Shown here: in pieces, positions 6,325-60,930 of the stretch
Layout of the letters: each line of letters starts with the position of its first letter
Numbering within the stretch: the stretch's first letter is position 1
Assembly (NCBI GenBank): GCA_903851035.1
Contig: CAINND010000024.1
Coordinates: 62,001-126,000 of the forward strand
Origin: an uncultured Acidobacteriota bacterium
Lineage (GTDB): Bacteria > Acidobacteriota > Terriglobia > Terriglobales > Acidobacteriaceae
Reading direction: 5' to 3'
Length of the DNA: 64,000 bases
Translations under genes and position numbers: made by a program
Notes under the pieces: generated by a model
Databases searched by the model: none
What the model was told of the DNA's origin: nothing
What the model saw: the letters and a program-made list of their open reading frames with translations, nothing else

Positions 6325-6478
6325 AGTTTCAAAGTTTCAGAGGTTTCAAGGTTTCAAAGTTTAGCGGCGCACCGTGCGCCGCTTTTTCCTGCCCTTTCGA
6401 TGACACTACACAGTGCTCTTAACCTCCGAAACCTCCGAAACATCCGTTACCTCCGAAACATCCCGCTCCCCGAAACCT
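6325..6478. repeat. Facing octamer arrays between def and fmt
   Basis: The left array (6325-6362) contains RGTTTCAA-type octamers (AGTTTCAA, AGTTTCAG, GGTTTCAA, GGTTTCAA, AGTTT). The right array (6422-6478) carries diverged units on the other strand, with CCTCCGAAA repeated and ending CCGAAACC. The ~60 bases between contain the def terminator and no gene. The right array runs to within 2 bases of the fmt -10 box. Family members also occur near 26.6, 37.7, 55.3 and 60.9 kb. Confidence 0.75.
6364..6387 (+). terminator. Intrinsic terminator after def
   Basis: A perfect stem GCGGCGCA/TGCGCCGC (6364-6371 with 6375-6382) with a 3-nt loop is followed by TTTTT. It lies inside the interval bounded by the two octamer arrays. 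Confidence 0.85.
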
Positions 6479-6479
6479 T

Positions 6480-6485
6480 TACAAT
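6480..6485 (+). promoter_or_regulatory. -10 box of fmt, probably leaderless
   Basis: TACAAT sits exactly 6 nt before the GTG start of fmt. There is no Shine-Dalgarno. The promoter spacer and -35 region would lie within the diverged right octamer array. Confidence 0.6.
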
Positions 6486-6491
6486 GAGACT

Positions 6492-36263: not shown

Positions 36264-37947
<1,684 letters not shown>

Positions 37948-51800: not shown

Positions 51801-52209
51801 TCGAGATCGTCTGATTCTCGGTGTTGACGGCCACGTCGGAGGAGATTTCGGAAACCTCAACCACCGTTGAGCTGGTGCCCACCGCCAGGGTGGCGGAGAC
51901 GTCCACACTGCCGGCAACGTAAACTTCGGCCTTGCGCTCGAACTTGGCAAAACCAGCGGCCTCAATGGTGACCTTGTAGAGGGCGGGCTTCAAGCTCGGG
52001 AAGTTGTAGATACCGGATGAATTTGTGACACCGGTACGCGACACGTTGGTTTCAACGGCCGTAACGATGACCTTGGCATTGGCAACCACGGCGCCCGTCT
52101 TATCCTTGACGGTGCCCGAGATCTGACCGGTTTCGGTCTGGCCAAACGCGGCCACTGCCAGGCTGAGCAGAAGCAGAGAGAAGACCAACACTCTCGTTAG
52201 TTTTTGCAT
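48835..52209 (-). CDS. TonB-dependent receptor, Oar-like, with CarboxypepD_reg domain (2)
   Basis: The 1124-residue outer-membrane receptor has a signal peptide (1-23) and a CarboxypepD_reg domain (~28-110; GQISGTVKDKTGAVVANAKVIV, GIYNFPSLKPALYKVTIEAAGF). A plug (~115-270; VVTKSGTNHFHGSLYEFNR) and a beta-barrel ending VDFGLKFMF follow. The order matches the neighbouring receptor, but the sequences are clearly different, so this is not a recent duplication. GGGAGC precedes the ATG. Both receptors point the same way, each with its own promoter region and terminator. Confidence 0.92.
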   Translation of the reverse strand: MQKLTRVLVFSLLLLSLAVAAFGQTETGQISGTVKDKTGAVVANAKVIVTAVETNVSRTGVTNSSGIYNFPSLKPALYKVTIEAAGFAKFERKAEVYVAGSVDVSATLAVGTSSTVVEVSEISSDVAVNTENQTISTVITTKDLDTLPTDANRNPYALVGLSTNVAADSNSGRGAGYAMNGERSASTSVLLDGAENVNTFTATIGQTVPLDSMQEFSVLTSNFGAEFGRASGGVINVVTKSGTNHFHGSLYEFNRVSKLSSNTEYNDQNGLPISRFTRNNFGFSLGGPVIKDKLFFFENLEWIRHRTGVSNNAVIVDPGSYSSLGANSQAYFAAFANLRSGLNLKATGPCNTSSYGSTLTCDWVNWFGQANAGGDNSQNTWDDVSKVDYNLSNKTSLSARYAGFHQQYLAGTINSSPYTGYDTGQNVFNQNITLALTHSFSPTVINTAKVVYNRLYQLQPLATAPVGPTMYSTSTVPSAPYPGFGGLQLIFPGYSQYTPGNAIPFGGPQNLYQIYDDLAISKGKHQIKIGGQYIQLRDNRVFGAYQNAVEALGKTYSDAMKNLINGNIYTFSGAINPQGEYPCYLDTNGNRIVTPACTLSLPATSPKFSRNYKYNDAAAYIQDSWKTTSHLTINAGLRWEYYGVQHNSDPSLDSNFVLGPGMNQLQRFRNGAVELAKDGGFFWRPQYGNFAPRVGFAWDPTGKGTTSVRGGISIGYERNFGNVTYNAIQNPPNYGVLSLQGEGADYPTLPVYTSNYGPLAGSGTHFFPAVSQRAINQNLKTAYAVTYNLGVEQKVFNNALFTLSYAGSHGVHQYDISNVNLAYSGYYYDFDPDGHAYTRNNLQYGAMNYRSDGGWNHYDALITSFKANNIRHSGVNVYATYQWSHTLDNLSSTFTDGNASNYGTGYWDAFNPKLDYGNADYDTRHRLVATASWDIPYLKNSKNAIERYALAGWVMSGTFSAQSGNPFTIWDCDNYNGTTCPFYVPYAGQKIPTSGVKAGSSSYEGAGVYNYITIPGPINYGDASGWALCNDQYHVDCQWTNSGLTPGHRNQFAGPKAWNLDVQILKNVKFNDKYSMQFRSQIFNIFNHQNASIIGNNLDVSGTSEIQQIKSGTRYVDFGLKFMF

Positions 52210-52633
52210 TTGAGCTCCCTTTGGAACGTAATCAAACAGTTACAGGTGGACAAGCTATCAACGGCTCGAACTGATGGCTCCCCCGAAGGGTATCCATTCA
52301 GTTAGCCGTTGGACTTGCCTATATGTAGAGCAAGTGGCATACCAAACCCGCCCTCCGTTTGGAGACTATGGGAGTACAACTTCCAGAGATTCCACAGCTT
52401 GTGGGTAGCCCGGTTATTCCACCTTTGGAAAGCCAAGATGAAAATACTACTAAAAATGGAATAATTTATCGTCACTTTGGTTTTACGGAAAATTACTAAT
52501 TAGTAAACTATCTTACGATACTTTCTGCGGCCTGAATCGGCTCCGTCAGGAAGCTGACTGGTGGAAGAAAAGCCGCCGGCTGGTATCCGGAGAGGCAACG
52601 AAAAGGTTCGCGCAGCCGGGAGCAGAAGGCGGC
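52210..52633. other. Divergent AT-rich region between TonB receptor 2 and the small Cys-pair gene
   Basis: AT-rich runs occur at 52430-52520. It must carry the receptor promoter on the minus strand and the small gene promoter on the plus strand. A minus-strand open frame (52715-52500) overlaps the small gene and is not credible. Confidence 0.35.
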
Positions 52634-52639
52634 TATAAT
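52634..52639 (+). promoter_or_regulatory. Perfect -10 box of the Cys-pair gene
   Basis: TATAAT overlaps the ATG at 52638, which therefore cannot be the start. The next in-frame ATG (52650) lies 10 nt downstream, leaving a leader of only a few bases. Confidence 0.55.
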
Positions 52640-52649
52640 GAACGGCATT

Positions 52650-52922
52650 ATGGAAGAGCGGGAATATTACGACGAGCGCCAGGAAAGCAAGAAGCATCAG
52701 TTGATGTGTCCGCATTGCCGCCAGGAGAACGAGTACGAGGTGAACTGGCTGGTGCGGATGAAGAAAAAGTCATTGCCCGCCCGCGCCGACGAGCGCGACC
52801 GCGCCAAGTTCGCCAAGGCGCAAAGCTACATGGTGCGCAAAGACGACCTGCTGGCCTGCAAGAACATGCGCTGCCGCAAGCGCTTTGAGATCGCCGGCCT
52901 GCAGACGGTGGCTTTCCTGTAG
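52650..52922 (+). CDS. Small protein with two CxxC-like pairs, possible zinc ribbon
   Basis: The 90-residue protein contains CPHCRQENEYEV early and CKNMRCRKRFE late, so two Cys pairs (CxxC and CxxxxC) could bind one zinc ion. The middle is basic and charged (RMKKKSLPARADERDRAKFAKAQ). No catalytic domain is seen. Start 52650 is set by the promoter box that covers the earlier ATG. An intrinsic terminator follows at 52990. Confidence 0.7.
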   Translation: MEEREYYDERQESKKHQLMCPHCRQENEYEVNWLVRMKKKSLPARADERDRAKFAKAQSYMVRKDDLLACKNMRCRKRFEIAGLQTVAFL

Positions 52923-52989
52923 GCGGAAAACTGACGCCATCGGCAGCGGCCTCCTGCGCGCCGAGTGCACGCACGAATACTGCACACAC

Positions 52990-53020
52990 AATGGCGTCCT
53001 GACGGGCGCCATTTCCTTTG
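52990..53020 (+). terminator. Intrinsic terminator after the Cys-pair gene
   Basis: The stem AATGGCG/CGCCATT (52990-52996 with 53007-53013) is followed by TCCTTTG. The rest of the gap up to 53246 holds the etfB promoter region and no gene. Confidence 0.65.
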
Positions 53021-53246
53021 ATTTACTGTGATGTGCGGCCGACGGCCGCTGCCGTAAATTTCCCCACTGAATACCCATTCAGTTTTTGCCTTTCCCGGGA
53101 TATACTCTTTCGTCCTGCAACCAGCGGCCTGGGCGCGACGTTTGTTGTCGCCCACTTTTCGCCTGGTATGCCGGGCATGTGGGGAGCGCGGAGTGGGCCG
53201 CGTCCGCGCAATCTGATTTTTCTACATTCTTCCATCGAGGTGCAGG

Positions 53247-54017
53247 GTGAAGATCTTGGTGTGCATGAAGCAGGTTCCGCAGAAGGATGCGCCGCTGAAG
53301 TTGAACGAGCAGGCGACCTGGGTGCGGGAAGACGTGGGCTACGAGGTGAACGAGCCCGACGCGTATGCGCTGGAAGCGGCGCTGCAACTGAAGGAAAAAA
53401 ACGGCGGCGAGGTGGTGGTGATTTCCGCCGGCCCGGCGCGCGCGCAGCAGGTGCTGCGAGAGGCGCTGGCCAAGGGCGCCGATCGCGCCATCCATCTTGA
53501 GGACGACCGCTTTGTCACCCTCGATGCCTTCAACATTGCGCGCAGTTTTGCCGAGGCCATCAAGGACGAGAGCTTTGACCTGGTGTTTACCGGGCTGCAA
53601 TCGGACGACTACGGCTACGCGCAGACCGGCGTGCTGCTGGCCGAGCTGCTGGGCTGGGCGCACGCGACGATCATCATGCAGATTGAGCCGAAAGATGGCG
53701 GCATCCGAGTGAAGCGCGAACTCGAGAGCGGCTTCTTCCAGTACGTGGAGATGCCCTTGCCCTCGGTGCTGACCATTCAGTCGGGCATCAACAAGCTGCG
53801 CTACGCCACGCTGATCGGCATCAAGCAGGCGAAGAACAAGCCGCTGCGCAAGGTGACCTACGACGAGGTGGCCGCCGCGCTGAAGCCCAACCAGTTGACC
53901 ATCGAAAAGCTCTACGTGCCGGTAAAGACCAAGCAGACCGAGGTCATCACCGGAGCTCCGGGTGAGGTGGCCAAAAAGCTGGTGGCCAAGCTGCGCGACG
54001 AGCTTCGAGTGCTGTAA
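53247..54017 (+). CDS. etfB: Electron transfer flavoprotein subunit beta
   Basis: The 256-residue protein starts MKILVCMKQVPQKDAPLKLN and has VISAGPARAQQVLREALAKGADRAIHLED, then the ETF-beta signature VEMPLPSVLTIQSGINKLRYATLIGIKQAKNKP with its AMP site. EtfAB accepts electrons from acyl-CoA dehydrogenases. The start is GTG with GAGG upstream. It heads an operon with a small membrane protein, etfA and ETF:quinone oxidoreductase. Confidence 0.96.
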   Translation: MKILVCMKQVPQKDAPLKLNEQATWVREDVGYEVNEPDAYALEAALQLKEKNGGEVVVISAGPARAQQVLREALAKGADRAIHLEDDRFVTLDAFNIARSFAEAIKDESFDLVFTGLQSDDYGYAQTGVLLAELLGWAHATIIMQIEPKDGGIRVKRELESGFFQYVEMPLPSVLTIQSGINKLRYATLIGIKQAKNKPLRKVTYDEVAAALKPNQLTIEKLYVPVKTKQTEVITGAPGEVAKKLVAKLRDELRVL

Positions 54018-54047
54018 GACGGCGCACAAACAGGAAGGAGAAGCATC

Positions 54048-54275
54048 ATGACCGGAGTGAATCATCCCGCGGAGTTTGAAGAGCAGCGCGAGCGTGTGAA
54101 CGCCCTGCGCTTTTTGGGCGGGCTGCTGCTGACCGTGGCGTTGCTGCTGTTCTTCTTCCACCTGGCGGAGTCTCCGGCGGGGCACCACACGCTGGGCATC
54201 CTGGCGCTGGTGTTTGCCATTCCGGGCGTGCTGCTGCTGTTGTTGGGGCACCGAAAGCTACGCCAATTGCGCTGA
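54048..54275 (+). CDS. Small two-helix membrane protein within the etf operon
   Basis: The 75-residue protein has a charged N-terminus (1-20), two hydrophobic helices (about 21-40 and 48-66), and a basic end (GHRKLRQLR). It sits between etfB and etfA with a good Shine-Dalgarno (GGAAGGAG). The position suggests a role with the ETF complex at the membrane, but no domain family is recognised. Confidence 0.75.
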   Translation: MTGVNHPAEFEEQRERVNALRFLGGLLLTVALLLFFFHLAESPAGHHTLGILALVFAIPGVLLLLLGHRKLRQLR

Positions 54276-54366
54276 TTGAACTGACGAGGAAGAAACCGAC
54301 GAGATTGTATGCGCGCCCTGTGCGCGACGGCCGCCCGGCAAAGCGGGCGAGGCGAGGATAAGAGAG

Positions 54367-55341
54367 ATGGCTGAGACGATTCTGGTGATTGCAGAGCAGC
54401 GCGAGGGCAAGTTGAACCGCGTCTCGCTGGAGACAATTGTTGGCGCGCAGGCGCTGGCCAAGCAGACGGGCTGGACGGTGGAGGCCGCGCTGGTGAGCGG
54501 CGGCAACGCTCCCGTGGACGAGTTGAAGGCAGCCAAGCTGGCGCGGATTTACTCCGTGGAAGGCCCCGAGTTGGCGCAGTACACGCCGGATGGATTTGTG
54601 GGTGCGCTGAAAGCATTGATTGAGGCGAAGCGGCCGAAGCTGGTGCTGCTGCCGCACACTTACCAAGTGCGCGACTTCGCACCGAAGCTGGCGGCCACCT
54701 TTGGAGCCGTGCTGGTGAGCGACGCCACGGGCGCCAAGTTTGAAGGCGGCAAAGTGCTGTTCATGCGCCAGATGTTCCAGGGCAAATTCACGGCCGATGT
54801 AGCGCTGGCCGGCGATGGCCCGTGGTTCGTCAGCTTCCAGAGCGGCGCCTACCGGGCGGACCAGCTCGAAGCAGGCACGGCCGACGTGGAGACCATCGCG
54901 GCGGGTTCGGCCACCATCCGCACCAAGCCCGAGGCTCCTTTCCAGGAGGCGAAGCAGGCGGTGGACCTTTCGCAGGCGGAGATCATCGTCAGCGTGGGCC
55001 GCGGCATCAAGGAGCAGAAGAACATCGCGCTGGCGCAGGCCCTGGCCGACGCCTTGGGCGGAGAGATTGCCGCCTCGCGCCCTATCTGCGACGCCGGTTG
55101 GCTGCCCATGGAGCGGCAGGTCGGCTCCAGCGGCCAGACCGTGAGCCCGAAGCTATATCTTGCGCTGGGCATCAGCGGAGCTATTCAGCACATCGTCGGC
55201 ATGAAGGGATCGAAGAGCATCATCGCCATCAACAAGGACGCCGAGGCACCGATCTTCGAAGTGGCCGACGTGGCCGTGGTAGGCAATCTCTTCGACATTG
55301 TGCCCGCACTGACGGAAGAGATTAAGAAGGCAAAGGCGTAG
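54367..55341 (+). CDS. etfA: Electron transfer flavoprotein subunit alpha
   Basis: The 324-residue protein has an N-terminal ETF domain (LVIAEQREGKLNRVSLETIVGAQALAK) and the C-terminal FAD-binding domain, with SGQTVSPKLYLALGISGAIQHIVGM and INKDAEAPIFEVADVAVVGNLFDIVPAL. Length is typical. The stop is followed after 5 bases by the left octamer array. Confidence 0.97.
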   Translation: MAETILVIAEQREGKLNRVSLETIVGAQALAKQTGWTVEAALVSGGNAPVDELKAAKLARIYSVEGPELAQYTPDGFVGALKALIEAKRPKLVLLPHTYQVRDFAPKLAATFGAVLVSDATGAKFEGGKVLFMRQMFQGKFTADVALAGDGPWFVSFQSGAYRADQLEAGTADVETIAAGSATIRTKPEAPFQEAKQAVDLSQAEIIVSVGRGIKEQKNIALAQALADALGGEIAASRPICDAGWLPMERQVGSSGQTVSPKLYLALGISGAIQHIVGMKGSKSIIAINKDAEAPIFEVADVAVVGNLFDIVPALTEEIKKAKA

Positions 55342-55346
55342 GAGTG

Positions 55347-55852
55347 GGTTTCAAAGTTTCAAGGTTTCATAGTTTCAAAGTCGCCCAGACAAACCATCGC
55401 GTTAGTGTGCCCTGTTGTGGCAGAAGGTGGAGCAACGATTGGCAAACACATATCGTGATCTGCTGGTATGGCAGAAGGCGAAGGTAATAGCAATTAGGGT
55501 ATATCGAGCCACAGAGAGCTTTCCCAAAAGCGAGGTCTTCGGGCTGTGCTCGCAAATGCGGAGAGCGGCGGTCTCCGTGGTATCGAACATCGCCGAGGGT
55601 CAGGGCCGGGGCAGTAAGCCGGATTTTGCCAACTTTCTGTGCATGGCGCGTGGCTCGCTGCTGGAACTGGAAACGCAATTAGAAATCTCACGTGAATTGG
55701 GATTCGGCAAAGAGGCAGAACTACAGGATATTGAGTCCGATTGTTACCGGTTGCTGGGTTTATTGAATCGCCTGCTCGACACGCTGAGAAAGAAGCCTCT
55801 GGGCCGCGAGTGATCTGGCCTTGAAACCTGGAAACCTTGAAACTTTGAAACC
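55347..55852. mobile_element. Octamer-array inverted-repeat element carrying a four-helix-bundle gene
   Basis: The left array (55347-55380) reads GGTTTCAA AGTTTCAA GGTTTCAT AGTTTCAA AG. The right array (55819-55852) has the same order on the opposite strand and agrees at 30 of 34 positions. They bracket one gene in the etf operon. The outer flanks are the etfA stop and the ETF-QO Shine-Dalgarno. No transposase is encoded; mobility is inferred from its dispersed relatives. Confidence 0.75.
55439..55813 (+). CDS. Four-helix-bundle protein (S23/IVS, Avd-like family)
   Basis: The 124-residue protein has YRDLLVWQKAKVIAIRVYRATESFPKSE, then LCSQMRRAAVSVVSNIAEGQGRGS and a Leu-rich third and fourth helix (SLLELETQLEISRELGF, LLGLLNRLLDTLRK). 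This matches the family found in 23S rRNA intervening sequences and as Avd accessory proteins of diversity-generating retroelements. A TTG start at 55439 follows GGTGGAG by 6 nt; the longer frame from TTG 55415 lacks a site. It is enclosed by the inverted octamer arrays. Function of free-standing members is unknown. Confidence 0.88.
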   Translation: MANTYRDLLVWQKAKVIAIRVYRATESFPKSEVFGLCSQMRRAAVSVVSNIAEGQGRGSKPDFANFLCMARGSLLELETQLEISRELGFGKEAELQDIESDCYRLLGLLNRLLDTLRKKPLGRE

Positions 55853-55864
55853 TGAGAAGGAACC

Positions 55865-57571
55865 ATGATCTTTCGCACCCCACTAGAAGGCATCGAGCAT
55901 CCGGAGATGGAAGCCGATGTGGTTATCGTCGGCGGAGGGCCGGCCGGCATGAGCTGTGCGCTGCGCCTGTCGCAGCTCATTGACGAGCACAACGCCGCGC
56001 ATCCCGACTCCGCGCTGAGCAAGGAAAACATCTACGTGCTGGAAAAGGGGCGCGAGATTGGCATGCACTCGCTGAGCGGCGCGCTGCTCGACCCGCGCTC
56101 GATGAACGAGCTGCTGCCGGGCTGGGAAAACGAGGCTCCCATTGAGAGTCCCGTGACCAGCGACAGCCTGTACTACATGACGCGCACGGCGGCCTTCAAG
56201 GCTCCCATTACGCCGCCGCCCATGCAGGATCACGGCAATTACGTGATCAGCCTGAACCGCTTTACCAAGTGGCTGGGCGGCAAGGTGGAAGAGGCCGGCA
56301 TCACGGTGTTCAGCGGCTTTGCCGGCAGCGAACTGCTGTACGACGGCGACCGTGTGGCGGGCGTGCGCACCGACGACAAGGGTGTGGACAAGAACAACCA
56401 GCCCAAGGGCAACTTTGAGCCCGGCTACGATTTGAAGTCCAAGGTGACGGTGCTGGCCGAAGGGCCGCGCGGCTCGCTGACCAAGCAGCTCATCGCGCGC
56501 TTCGACCTGCTGAAAGACCGCAATCCGCAGACCTTTGGCGTGGGCGTGAAAGAGCTGTGGGAGCTGCCCGAGGGTCGCATCAAGCCGGGACAAGTCATCT
56601 ACACCATGGGCTGGCCGCTGACCACAGCCGAGTACGGCGGCGCGTGGATTTACGGCGGCAAGGACAACACAGTCTCGCTTGGCTTCGTCACCGGCCTGGA
56701 CTACCCGGACCCGCGCACTGACCCGCAACACGTTTTGCAGAGCTTCAAGCAGCACCCGATGGTGGCCAAGCTTTTGGAGGGCGGCAAGCTGGTGCGCTAC
56801 GGCGCCAAGACCATGCCCTACGGCGGCTGGTGGAGCCTGCCTCCGCTGGGCGGCGACGGATGGATGATTGTCGGCGACTCAGCGGGTTTCCTCAATTCGC
56901 AGCGGTTGAAGGGCGTGCATCTGGCCATCAAGAGCGGCATGCTGGCCGCGGAGACCGCCTTTGCCGCGCTCATCGGCGGAGACTCGTCGGCCAAGGCCCT
57001 CGGCGAATTCCAGAAGAAGGTAGATTCGAGCTGGATCAAGCAGGAACTTTACCCGGTACGCAACTTCCATCAGGGCTTTGAGCACGGATTCCTGGCTGGA
57101 ATGTTGAACACCGGCCTGCTGATGGCCACCGGCGGGCACGGACTGATGAATCGCTACGCAGGCCACCCCGGCCACACGCGCATGCTGCAGCTGTGGGACA
57201 TCATGGGCCACGGCGGCAATCGAGAGGCTCTGACCGGCCCGGCCAAGGGCGATGGCAAGCTCACGTTCGACAAACTGACCGACCTGTACCACAGCGGCAC
57301 GCGCCATGAGGAAGACCAGCCCGCGCACCTTGTGGTGATGGACACAGACCTGTGCGTGACGCGCTGCACAAAGGAGTACGGCAACCCGTGCCAGTTCTTT
57401 TGCCCGGCGAATGTGTATGAGATGGCAGAGGTGGAGGGCGGCGGCAAACGGCTGCACCTCAATCCCAGCAACTGCGTGCACTGCAAGACCTGCGACATCA
57501 TGGACCCCTACCAGATCATCAACTGGGTGCCACCCGAGGGCGGCGGCGGACCAAACTACGACGGCATGTAG
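55865..57571 (+). CDS. Electron transfer flavoprotein-ubiquinone oxidoreductase
   Basis: The 568-residue membrane-associated flavoprotein passes electrons from ETF to quinone. It has an N-terminal FAD site (VIVGGGPAGMSCALRL), a central region with GGWWSLPPLGGDGWMIVGDSAGFLN, and a C-terminal [4Fe-4S] module CTKEYGNPCQFFCPANVY plus SNCVHCKTCDIMDP. All expected Cys are present. GAGAAGGAA before the ATG abuts the right octamer array. With etfB and etfA it forms an acyl-CoA oxidation-to-respiration route. A terminator follows. Confidence 0.96.
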   Translation: MIFRTPLEGIEHPEMEADVVIVGGGPAGMSCALRLSQLIDEHNAAHPDSALSKENIYVLEKGREIGMHSLSGALLDPRSMNELLPGWENEAPIESPVTSDSLYYMTRTAAFKAPITPPPMQDHGNYVISLNRFTKWLGGKVEEAGITVFSGFAGSELLYDGDRVAGVRTDDKGVDKNNQPKGNFEPGYDLKSKVTVLAEGPRGSLTKQLIARFDLLKDRNPQTFGVGVKELWELPEGRIKPGQVIYTMGWPLTTAEYGGAWIYGGKDNTVSLGFVTGLDYPDPRTDPQHVLQSFKQHPMVAKLLEGGKLVRYGAKTMPYGGWWSLPPLGGDGWMIVGDSAGFLNSQRLKGVHLAIKSGMLAAETAFAALIGGDSSAKALGEFQKKVDSSWIKQELYPVRNFHQGFEHGFLAGMLNTGLLMATGGHGLMNRYAGHPGHTRMLQLWDIMGHGGNREALTGPAKGDGKLTFDKLTDLYHSGTRHEEDQPAHLVVMDTDLCVTRCTKEYGNPCQFFCPANVYEMAEVEGGGKRLHLNPSNCVHCKTCDIMDPYQIINWVPPEGGGGPNYDGM

Positions 57572-57598
57572 CGCGTTGGTGTGATGAAGAGGCAAAAA

Positions 57599-57624
57599 GG
57601 CCCGGGCAGCCGGGCCTTTTCTTT
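57599..57624 (+). terminator. Intrinsic terminator of the etf operon
   Basis: The stem GGCCCGG/CCGGGCC (57599-57605 with 57610-57616) is followed by TTTTCTTTT. Confidence 0.88.
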
Positions 57625-57721
57625 TGCGCAATAAGCCGAGGATGCACGGGGCAGAAAAGGCTCGAAGCCATGTGGCGGCGGCGCGCATCCAATCCTGCAG
57701 TGTTCAAAGGTAGTTTCCCCC

Positions 57722-58711
57722 ATGCCCCTTGTTGACTCTCACGGCCGCACAATCCGCGATCTCAGAATCTCCGTCACCGACCGCTGCAACTATCGCTGCG
57801 TGTACTGCCGCACGGGCGAGCACGGTGCGCAGTTTGCCGAACTGACTATGCCTGACTATCTGCGCATGGCGCGGGTCTTCGTCAGCCTGGGAATCACCAA
57901 GATTCGCCTGACCGGCGGCGAGCCGCTGCTGCGCAACGACCTTCTGGAATTAATCCGCGAGCTAGCAAAGCTGCGCACCGCCGAGGGCAAGGCTCCGGAG
58001 CTGGCGCTGACCACCAACGGGCATCTGCTGGCGGAGATGGCCGCGCCGCTGCGCCAGGCCGGGCTGACGCGCGTCACCATCAGCATGGACGCCGTCGAGC
58101 CCGAGCGCTTTGCCCGCATCACGCGCGTCAAGGGCAGCTACCAGGCGGTGCTGGAAGGGGTTCGCGCGGCGCGGCAGGCGGGGCTGGGGCCGGTCAAAAT
58201 CAATTGCGTGCTGCTGCGCGGCTTCAACGAGGATCAGGTGGAAGCCTTTGGCCGCTTCGCCCGCGACGAGCAGGTCGTGGTGCGCTTTATTGAGTTCATG
58301 CCGCTGGAAGAAGGCCGGGTGTGGAGTCCCGATGTGGTGGTGCCGCTTGCAGAGGTACTGCGGCGCATGCAGGGCTTTGCGCCCTTCCACGAGCTGGCGC
58401 ACGAAGCCAGCTCCACCGCGCGGCGCTATGCGTTTGACGATGGCCGCGGCGAGTTTGGCGTGATTGCGCCGGTCTCGCTTCCCTTCTGCGGCGCATGCTC
58501 GCGCATCCGGCTTACCAGCGACGGCAAGATACGCACATGCCTGTTCAGCCTGGGCGAATACGATCTGCACGCAGCCGTTCGCGAAGGCCGCAGCGACCTG
58601 GAGCTGGCGCGCATCATCGAGCACGCCGTGGCCCACAAGGAGGCGCGCCATCATATTGGCGAGCCGGGCTTTGTGCAGCCGGGGCGGACGATGGTTCACA
58701 TCGGCGGATAG
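57722..58711 (+). CDS. moaA: GTP 3',8-cyclase MoaA (molybdenum cofactor)
   Basis: The 329-residue radical SAM enzyme has CNYRCVYC for the first [4Fe-4S] cluster, GGEPLLR, and the second cluster FCGACSRIRLTSDGKIRTCLF. The C-terminus ends VHIGG, the two glycines important for catalysis. It converts GTP to 3',8-cH2GTP, the first step of molybdopterin synthesis. No other moa genes lie nearby. A TAGTTT box 5 nt before the ATG and no Shine-Dalgarno suggest a possible leaderless start, weaker than other cases here. Confidence 0.95.
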   Translation: MPLVDSHGRTIRDLRISVTDRCNYRCVYCRTGEHGAQFAELTMPDYLRMARVFVSLGITKIRLTGGEPLLRNDLLELIRELAKLRTAEGKAPELALTTNGHLLAEMAAPLRQAGLTRVTISMDAVEPERFARITRVKGSYQAVLEGVRAARQAGLGPVKINCVLLRGFNEDQVEAFGRFARDEQVVVRFIEFMPLEEGRVWSPDVVVPLAEVLRRMQGFAPFHELAHEASSTARRYAFDDGRGEFGVIAPVSLPFCGACSRIRLTSDGKIRTCLFSLGEYDLHAAVREGRSDLELARIIEHAVAHKEARHHIGEPGFVQPGRTMVHIGG

Positions 58712-58734
58712 ATATCTACGGCGAAAATACCCGG

Positions 58735-58962
58735 CTATTCGGAGTGGTGCTTCGCTGATTCAAGAACCTTGAAGCACCAAAATGCGGTGAGCGCAATCCA
58801 TCCGAACGCTGCAATCCAGTAGAAGCTGTCCGAGCGGCCTGCTTGATACAAAGTGATGTACTTGCCGATATAACCACCAGCGCAAAACGCCGTACTTATC
58901 GCCGCGAAAAGCCCCGTCCACACAGGAATGGGCTGCCCTTTTACCCCCGCGAACTTTCTCAT
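58735..58962 (-). CDS. Small two-helix membrane protein, unknown
   Basis: The 75-residue protein has two hydrophobic segments (about 12-34 and 45-65) and a polar C-terminus (KVLESAKHHSE). No family is recognised. It is convergent with moaA and divergent from nadA. Composition is less GC-rich than its neighbours. No Shine-Dalgarno precedes the ATG. Confidence 0.6.
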   Translation of the reverse strand: MRKFAGVKGQPIPVWTGLFAAISTAFCAGGYIGKYITLYQAGRSDSFYWIAAFGWIALTAFWCFKVLESAKHHSE

Positions 58963-59134
58963 AATCTATGAACCCCAATGAGAACCTACTGAATTGTCTT
59001 GCGCGCGAATTATATCTCCACTTGCCCAGATGGGCAGAATAGCGCCGCGTAAGGACCGTCCGGCGCCACTCTGCCCGTGTTTTTCTTGCCTCCTCCGGCG
59101 GAATTCATGCATCATTAACAACAGTACGCACCGC

Positions 59135-60848: not shown

Positions 60849-60852
60849 ACAG

Positions 60853-60930
60853 GTTTCAACGTTTCAAAGTTTCAAAGACCTGGGGTTTCGGAGGTTTCTC
60901 ACGTTTCGGAAGTTTCGGAGGTTTGAGACC
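60853..60930 (+). repeat. Single octamer array after the DUF2203 gene
   Basis: Units GTTTCAAC, GTTTCAAA, GTTTCAAAG are followed by GTTTCGGAG, GTTTCTCAC, GTTTCGGAA and GTTTCGGAG. Unlike the other four loci, no facing array is seen downstream. It mixes CAA-type and CGG-type units, linking this array to the diverged right array at 6.4 kb. Confidence 0.7.

Follow-up and report, generated by a model that had tools for sequence, protein, structure and literature searches.

A four-helix-bundle gene and its bracketing tandem repeats suggest a little-noticed self-spreading system in bacteria

We found a gene of the four-helix-bundle family PF05635, the family of the 23S rRNA intervening-sequence (IVS) proteins, enclosed by two facing arrays of short tandem repeats in a 64,000-nucleotide stretch of DNA (the window) from an uncultured Acidobacteriota bacterium. 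The gene-array unit, its generality and a code that links each gene to its cognate repeat unit are well supported by the comparisons below. We consider it somewhat probable that the unit is a hairpin element of the IVS kind, with a pentameric protein that would recognise its own repeat and promote its copying, in the manner of the REP/RAYT systems and with no transposase. Genomes are referred to below by G numbers and loci or stretches of relatives by L numbers.

Results

A PF05635 gene inside facing octamer arrays

The window element occupies the gap between two genes read from the sequence as etfA and ETF-QO, names that the first-pass annotation had also given them (Table 1). The left array reads GGTTTCAA AGTTTCAA GGTTTCAT AGTTTCAA AG, and the right array, read on the minus strand, GGTTTCAA AGTTTCAA GGTTTCCA GGTTTCAA GG. 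Compared by eye, the two 34-bp arms are identical at 30 of 34 positions, which confirms the earlier description of a PF05635 gene inside facing octamer arrays. The profile search placed the gene in PF05635 with an E-value of 1.9e-36, exceeding the curated cut-off, and the bAvd profile gave a sub-threshold match (E 1e-4). An ORF tool placed the start of the gene at 55415 and its stop codon ends at 55813; we prefer the TTG at 55439 as the likely start because, in our own reading, the congeneric copy begins there. It is the only PF05635 gene that the profile search found in the source genome.

The first-pass annotation had also proposed a hairpin whose loop holds the gene, and the predicted RNA fold supports this, with a long terminal stem, the gene in the loop and a free energy of -191.5 kcal/mol. 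None of 100 shuffled sequences was as stable (z -2.85). No Rfam matches were obtained within 52000-59000 of the window, and the element is not inside a 23S rRNA gene.

Table 1. Repeat arrays and the enclosed gene in the window; neighbour names are readings of the sequence.
Feature	Start	End	Strand	Remarks
Octamer array past a stop codon	6325	6365	+	minus-strand 9-mer array (GTTTCGGAG type) next to it, at about 6422-6486
Gene-less facing array pair	26570	26778	.	from the pattern scan
Gene-less facing array pair	37721	37947	.	orthologous junction: no pair in G001 or G003, one array in G002
Whole insert	55342	55864	+	about 520 bp; follows putative etfA (54367-55341) and precedes putative ETF-QO (55865-57571)
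Left arm	55347	55380	+	four RGTTTCAA octamers; begins 5 nt past the etfA stop codon
PF05635 four-helix-bundle gene (23S rRNA intervening-sequence protein)	55439	55813	+	profile match; homologue of PDB 2gsc (E 1e-24)
Right arm	55819	55852	-	four octamers in opposite orientation; ends 12 nt upstream of the ETF-QO start codon
Octamer array, then 9-mer array, past a stop codon	60852	60927	+	missing at the orthologous junction in G001 and in G002

Most PF05635 genes are bracketed by facing repeats

Bracketing was scored by aligning the 200 bp upstream of a gene to the reverse complement of its downstream flank, with a cut-off of 25. The loci were drawn from 39 stretches of named genomes and from 30 and then 80 further stretches of relatives, and four more loci with a domain match were left out as their flanks were too short. 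A total of 136 of 147 PF05635 genes from several phyla scored at least 25, these being the best-scoring relatives, with 110 of the relatives' listed places, rather than a random sample. Four pairs of duplicates stand within the 147 (the window and L009, L026 and L124, L018 and L144, L015 and L138), all of them bracketed, and without them 132 of 143 distinct genes were bracketed. The same score was reached by 6.1% of 3,648 mispaired flanks and by 4 of 113 control ORFs from the same loci, the latter being crude longest-ORF calls of the kind also used for the array-edge distances below.

The repeats of the arms are tandem, mostly of 7 bp and sometimes of 8, and a period of 9 also occurs. The units themselves are diverse (AGTTCTC, AGTACCG, AGTGGCT, AGCTATC, AGGGACT, GTTTCAAG and others), with AG on the upstream strand in 102 of 120 consensus units and CT in 40. 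The octamer arrays of the first-pass annotation therefore hold for the window element and are too narrow as a description of the family, whose periods are 7, 8 and 9 and whose units are lineage-specific. True arms matched each other better than mispaired arms of the same unit by a modest excess (46.4 versus 41.1, p 0.003), and the true pairing scored highest in 29 of 67 cases. A second PF05635 domain match was observed a few kb from the first at L032, L044 and L039.

Plasmid loci were examined from 14 of 28 matching records, 13 cyanobacterial and one gemmatimonad, two of the 14 being an identical segment on two plasmids of one strain. Thirteen of the 14 scored at least 25, and 11 exceeded the 95th percentile of the mispairs (41.75), a percentile that comes from mispairs sharing units. 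The cyanobacterial-plasmid genes carry heptamer arms. The plasmid genes are nested between cas6 and cas4, between cas10 and cmr3 and between two ribonucleotide reductase genes, among others; the array-flanked genes between cas6/cas4 and cas10/cmr3 are those of L227, L232 and L234, all on cyanobacterial plasmids. A figure legend on CRISPR-linked proteins in PMC10910872 names a "23S rRNA IVP", and an inserted element would explain an IVS protein in such company.

The repeat unit follows the protein

Protein identity and unit similarity were correlated between genomes (r 0.35, 7,168 pairs, reached in 0 of 2,000 permutations). This comparison used 121 elements with a bracketing score of at least 28, with three identical proteins dropped and with bracketed genes only. 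Among pairs with at least 70% protein identity, 24 of 25 share the unit. Homologous flanks were present in 67 of 280 pairs at 60% identity or above, and part of the correlation is descent at one site. With the homologous-flank pairs removed, the correlation was 0.28 over 6,995 pairs (again 0 of 2,000 permutations), and 21 of 35 pairs with at least 65% identity share the unit. PF05635 copies within one genome share it in only 2 of 90 pairs. As judged from sequence comparison, the unit is tied to the lineage of the protein and not to the genome. Five genomes (G107, G098, G105, G026, G090) each hold 10 to 17 PF05635 matches; the copies that were read mostly have different units and low mutual identity, and so are not recent amplifications.

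Presence and absence at the etfA/ETF-QO junction

An orthologue of ETF-QO was located in 24 of the 30 relatives. Six of these (G001, G006, G013, G023, G024, G028) have an element at the junction, with etfA out of reach in G023, and G021 holds a remnant that looks like the product of a deletion, the sole such case. A short empty gap was present in eight relatives (G002 43 bp, G003 17, G007 8, G014 5, G017 29, G008 21, G016 4, G022 96), and the remaining nine have other sequence at the junction or no etfA within reach. Two of the four congeneric genomes carry the element (the source genome and G001) and two lack it (G002 and G003). Empty-site alleles at this junction had been set beforehand as a test by the first-pass annotation and were thus observed.

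Several of the resident copies have changed. The PF05635 copy of the congeneric G001 (L094/L180) has an in-frame stop, and this genome holds 8 octamer matches versus 39 in the source genome. The G006 copy is shortened. In G028 (L188) the gene is reversed inside arms that still face each other, and recombination between the arms could have flipped it.

The element stands at the same place in the named Acidobacteria loci L012, L014, L016 and L019 (L014 by its ETF-QO side only) and occupies the junction in several genera. The junction element is probably old and mostly vertical in descent, and an old insertion followed by repeated loss fits as well as repeated or recent gain, so that the mobility proposed at first pass would be one of two readings of this junction. 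The period of the junction arms is 8 in G000, G006, G024 and G028, 9 in G001, and 7 in G013, G023, L012, L014, L016 and L019. Both arms have the same period at 11 of 11 junction loci, as picked by a script whose choice for the right arm of G013 is weak. An equal period that differs between genomes points to concerted change of the two arms. The repeat editing that the first-pass annotation had envisaged was not seen; what was seen instead is arms keeping an equal period.

Gene-less arrays in the window and the source genome

A two-unit octamer pattern with up to 2 mismatches matched the window 21 times versus 0.05 expected, a count reached in 0 of 100 shuffles. Chance or base composition as the source of the arrays is ruled out by these shuffles together with the low score of the control ORFs. 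The arrays without the gene that the first-pass annotation had placed elsewhere in the window are borne out at four sites (Table 1). Over the whole source genome, 39 exact two-unit matches were found versus 3 for a reversed-pattern control. At 2 mismatches the counts were 99 and 75, and this control is uninformative, since arrays of the opposite strand match the reversed pattern too. The octamer scan of the source genome located facing pairs no more than 500 bp apart at only four places, of which the window contains three.

By eye, two stretches consist of 9-mers of the GTTTCGGAG type rather than of octamers: the array at about 6422-6486 and the distal portion (60883-60927) of the one at 60852. 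The window thus has 9-mer arrays beside octamer arrays, and the element of the congeneric G001 has 9-mer arms; the second, 9-mer unit seems to have spread in the source genome too. Three of the five array sites of the window were comparable with congeners, and the gene-less arrays vary within the genus (sites 37722 and 60853). The interior of the former pair (37753-37915) is unlike the native gap of G001 or G003, and its score of 19 against the array-holding gap of G002 lies at the 95th percentile of shuffles.

On the crude gene calls noted above, 23 of 30 scoreable arrays in the source genome lie within 30 nt of their outer neighbour, and the neighbour is on the same strand in 22 of 30. The commonest array length is four units (16 of 37 arrays). 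Long arrays of roughly 8 to 17 units, measured as runs of overlapping matches, were observed at G049:C102:4543-4742, G036:C10:199041-199121 and G017:C259:13668-13731, and such unusually long arrays are possibly sites of slippage growth.

Gene-less arrays in two further genomes

Twenty stretches of G029 and G004 were read for the anatomy of gene-less arrays, and 17 of their 33 arrays have four units. No five-unit array that would match a pentamer was seen as a preferred length, four being the mode. Ten of 12 G029 stretches have their gap filled by a facing pair, and 13 of the 16 arrays that could be scored there are no more than 30 nt away from the outer neighbour; the corresponding counts for G004 were only 1 of 8 stretches and 0 of 4 arrays. 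On the inner side only 1 of 22 arrays was within 30 nt. The G029 arrays abut start edges as well as stop edges. A target specific to stop codons, as hinted at by the source genome, was rejected on these start edges and on the absence of edge proximity in G004. We read the arrays as filling short intergenic gaps in some genomes.

Ten pairs were read in G029, and the nine that were compared (L244 was left out) have interiors that resemble each other no more than shuffled sequences do. For these nine, the idea that gene-less pairs are copies with a shared core is ruled out, and with it the single family of coding and empty members proposed in the first-pass annotation. Since the interiors are unrelated, at most the array itself is copied, which is mechanically hard to explain.

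Dispersed arrays track the resident gene across genomes

We counted exact matches of five unit patterns in 120 relatives, 85 with PF05635 and 35 without. Cognate units were labelled from the reading of gene flanks with two exceptions: G069 was labelled from its array matches, with the arms confirmed later, and G088, whose unit was known from flanks, was labelled after the counts. For stretches L217-L224 the PF05635 arms were taken from L217, L218 and L223. The 17 cognate genome-unit pairs had a mean of 21.0 matches, a count that takes in the arrays beside the gene itself, versus a mean of 1.6 for PF05635 genomes as a whole; in the labelled genomes, the units not cognate to the gene had a mean of 0.6. 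None of 20,000 label permutations reached the cognate mean. This was equally so without the two labels set after the counts (20.9, 0 of 20,000) and for a wider set of labels (17.6, 0 of 20,000) that adds G028 and G006, which have octamer arms at the junction, and G083 and G050, which have mixed AGTACCG-type arms.

For AGTACCG and ACAGGG the labelled genomes hold exactly the top ranks, and for AGCRAGTC three of four are in the top ranks, with 0 matches in G022. The five labelled genomes rank 1, 3, 5, 10 and 15 for AGTTCTC, and the three for the octamer rank 1, 2 and 16. Low cognate counts were observed in G024, G004 and G007 (1, 3 and 4 matches). Many AGTTCTC matches with no cognate gene among the genes read were found in G009 and G030, and many such octamer matches in G007, G017, G049 and G071.

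Of the 684 matches, the 85 gene-bearing genomes hold 676 and the 35 gene-less genomes hold 8. At least one of the five units was present in 51 of the 85 and in 3 of the 35 (p 8e-8), these three being G002, G035 and G041, with a few arrays each. Taken singly, AGTTCTC was present in 26 of 85 versus 0 of 35 (p 3e-5) and AGTACCG in 15 of 85 versus 0 of 35 (p 0.004), while the window octamer, in 16 of 85 versus 2 of 35, was not significant (p 0.054). Within the window's family the counts were 19 of 54 versus 0 of 18 for AGTTCTC (p 0.0016), 14 of 54 versus 0 of 18 for AGTACCG (p 0.011) and 16 of 54 versus 2 of 18 for the octamer (p 0.10). The enrichment of genomes with the gene in dispersed arrays of the cognate unit is well supported; dependence of the arrays on the gene is less so for the window unit alone. 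The scarcity of arrays in genomes lacking the gene, which the first-pass annotation had put forward as a check, accordingly held for the five units together and fell short for the octamer by itself.

Reverse transcriptase, Y1 and the structure of the protein

No RVT_1 match was found in the source genome (98.93% complete), which has two Y1 matches, both elsewhere and neither of them the bracketed gene. G036 has no RVT_1 and no Y1_Tnp match yet holds 27 matches of its cognate unit. PF05635 presence was associated with neither reverse transcriptase nor Y1 (p 0.41 and 0.78), and Y1 was commoner in genomes with arrays of three units (40 of 42 versus 62 of 78, p 0.03). A RAYT or a reverse transcriptase as a required partner is ruled out by G036, and the latter also by the source genome; a weak Y1 association remains.

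The two nearest solved relatives of the window protein, 2gsc and 2rld, have five chains each. The Xanthomonas one among them is called a homopentamer in PMC4990558, and Xanthomonas campestris XCC0516 is a relative of the window protein. Seven residues of the aligned domain are conserved in at least 90% of members (R38, R39, N47, E50, G51, R54, E73) and are candidates for a binding surface.

Discussion

Comparison with known systems

The window element resembles the IVSs of 23S rRNA in its PF05635 gene, its terminal inverted stem, the position of the gene in the loop and its similar size, and it has all the IVS features testable here except location in rRNA. It differs in lying between protein genes and in having cognate arrays genome-wide. 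The IVS of Coxiella has a 28-bp terminal stem, is excised by RNase III and carries two to three tandem GACAGAT heptamers before its ORF (PMC4990558), and this is the nearest publication on a link between gene and repeat. We found no published link of PF05635, S23 or four-helix-bundle genes to dispersed tandem repeats in open-access full texts, nor a description there of an IVS-type element that also has dispersed repeats in the manner of REP.

In REP/RAYT systems a low-copy gene is bracketed by a paired repeat that has many gene-less intergenic copies, some of them inverted pairs, and the gene evolves slowly and the repeats fast. The window system is alike in that its repeats are dispersed and cognate to the bracketed gene. 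It is unlike in that its protein is a four-helix bundle and not a HUH nuclease, its arrays are tandem with units of 7-9 bp, and it can do without Y1 (G036). In function REP/RAYT is the closest parallel; the enzyme is where the two part.

Tandem heptanucleotides of cyanobacteria are known as STRR. These, the GGGAATC repeats of Xanthomonas and the TAACTGA repeats of Beggiatoaceae are intergenic tandem heptamers like the present arrays. Convergent pairs are frequent among the Xanthomonas repeats (70 and 75 cases), and four is their commonest number of units (PMC4692102). In the same source the Xanthomonas and Nostoc repeats are reported to have no association with recognised mobile elements and are connected to genomic stability, an argument against their rapid turnover in those genomes. 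No partner gene for the heptamers is named in the passages drawn on from PMC4692102 or from PMC4679880 on Beggiatoaceae, and the words "S23" and "four helix" have 0 occurrences in the full texts of both.

Avd, the accessory protein of diversity-generating retroelements, is homologous to PF05635 (PMC10053308), and the weak bAvd match of the window gene reflects a related four-helix bundle; unlike such a retroelement, the source genome has no reverse transcriptase match. The pairs are also unlike MITEs, as the nine G029 pairs have no conserved core between terminal repeats. The TRAP ring binds spaced NAG triplets. A ring with five chains per solved relative that bound its repeats would be akin to a TRAP-like binder.

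A model for the element and its alternatives

We propose that the gene and its two facing arrays form one element. Once transcribed, the arms would pair into a long hairpin, as in the rRNA IVSs, and this hairpin could be cut out by RNase III. The pentameric ring would bind its own repeat in a TRAP-like manner with about one subunit per unit, the repeat being bound most probably as a single strand or within the arm of the hairpin, and binding would place or multiply cognate arrays in intergenic gaps. New arrays might arise via host replication or repair, which is a guess. The rRNA IVS would then be the case of an element that landed in 23S rRNA. Several results weigh against the model: the mode of four units where a simple pentamer would favour five, the facing pairs that prevail in G029 and not in G004, the unrelated interiors of gene-less pairs, the modest excess of true arms over mispairs, the low cognate counts of some genomes and the many matches of others with no cognate gene read, the few arrays kept by three gene-less genomes, the octamer association that by itself is not significant, the weak Y1 association, and the published report on the Xanthomonas and Nostoc repeats.

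Part of the evidence can also be read as regulation, with the protein as a TRAP-like RNA-binding regulator, the arms autoregulating its own mRNA and the dispersed arrays as the targets of a regulon. The closeness of arrays to gene edges in the source genome (23 of 30) and in G029 (13 of 16), the four-unit commonest length and the cognate specificity all suit a regulator. Against it, the sites are unconserved, the 37722 and 60853 arrays being missing from congeneric orthologues; moreover, G029 has arrays at start and stop sides, none of four lies near an edge in G004, and the Xanthomonas and Nostoc repeats are not limited to particular gene classes (PMC4692102). We therefore judge a regulon unlikely.

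The arrays might instead be moved in trans by a Y1 (RAYT-type) transposase or a reverse transcriptase, with the PF05635 protein as adaptor or passenger, and both the Y1 excess in array-bearing genomes (p 0.03) and the resemblance to Avd (PMC10053308) point that way. We hold this to be quite improbable, given a source genome without RVT_1, the 27 matches of G036 in the presence of neither enzyme and the lack of association of PF05635 with either. We disfavour still more, as very improbable, the reading of the arrays as passive simple-sequence repeats of the host, in which the gene merely sits or survives in repeat-rich gaps. Many bacterial genomes have an excess of heptamers (PMC4692102), and arrays do occur without the gene, but facing arms are usual at PF05635 genes and rare at control ORFs (4 of 113), the unit follows the protein and differs between copies in the same genome, and arrays are rarer in genomes without the gene. 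The IVS-like element with a protein that would recognise its own repeat is the reading we retain.

The published heptamer repeats and the Coxiella rRNA IVS look like members of the same class. A broader proposal, which we advance tentatively and regard as slightly doubtful, is that selfish repeat systems without a nuclease, polymerase or transposase are widespread, in which a ring protein would read a lineage-specific code and seed arrays that often face each other, with IVSs and the cyanobacterial, GGGAATC and TAACTGA repeats as its products. The element would supply one testable cause for two matters: the role of the S23/IVS protein, for which rRNA inserts and a crystal structure are the main sources of knowledge, and the origin of the intergenic heptamers that separate reports describe from cyanobacteria, xanthomonads and Beggiatoaceae. 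A protein-repeat code readable from sequence is a prediction of this cause, which also suggests that an IVS protein beside cas genes is an inserted element and not a CRISPR component. The bracketed gene, together with the matching repeats that tend to be more numerous in genomes carrying it, suggests that a self-spreading system has gone largely unnoticed, one that may account for repeats in several bacterial groups.
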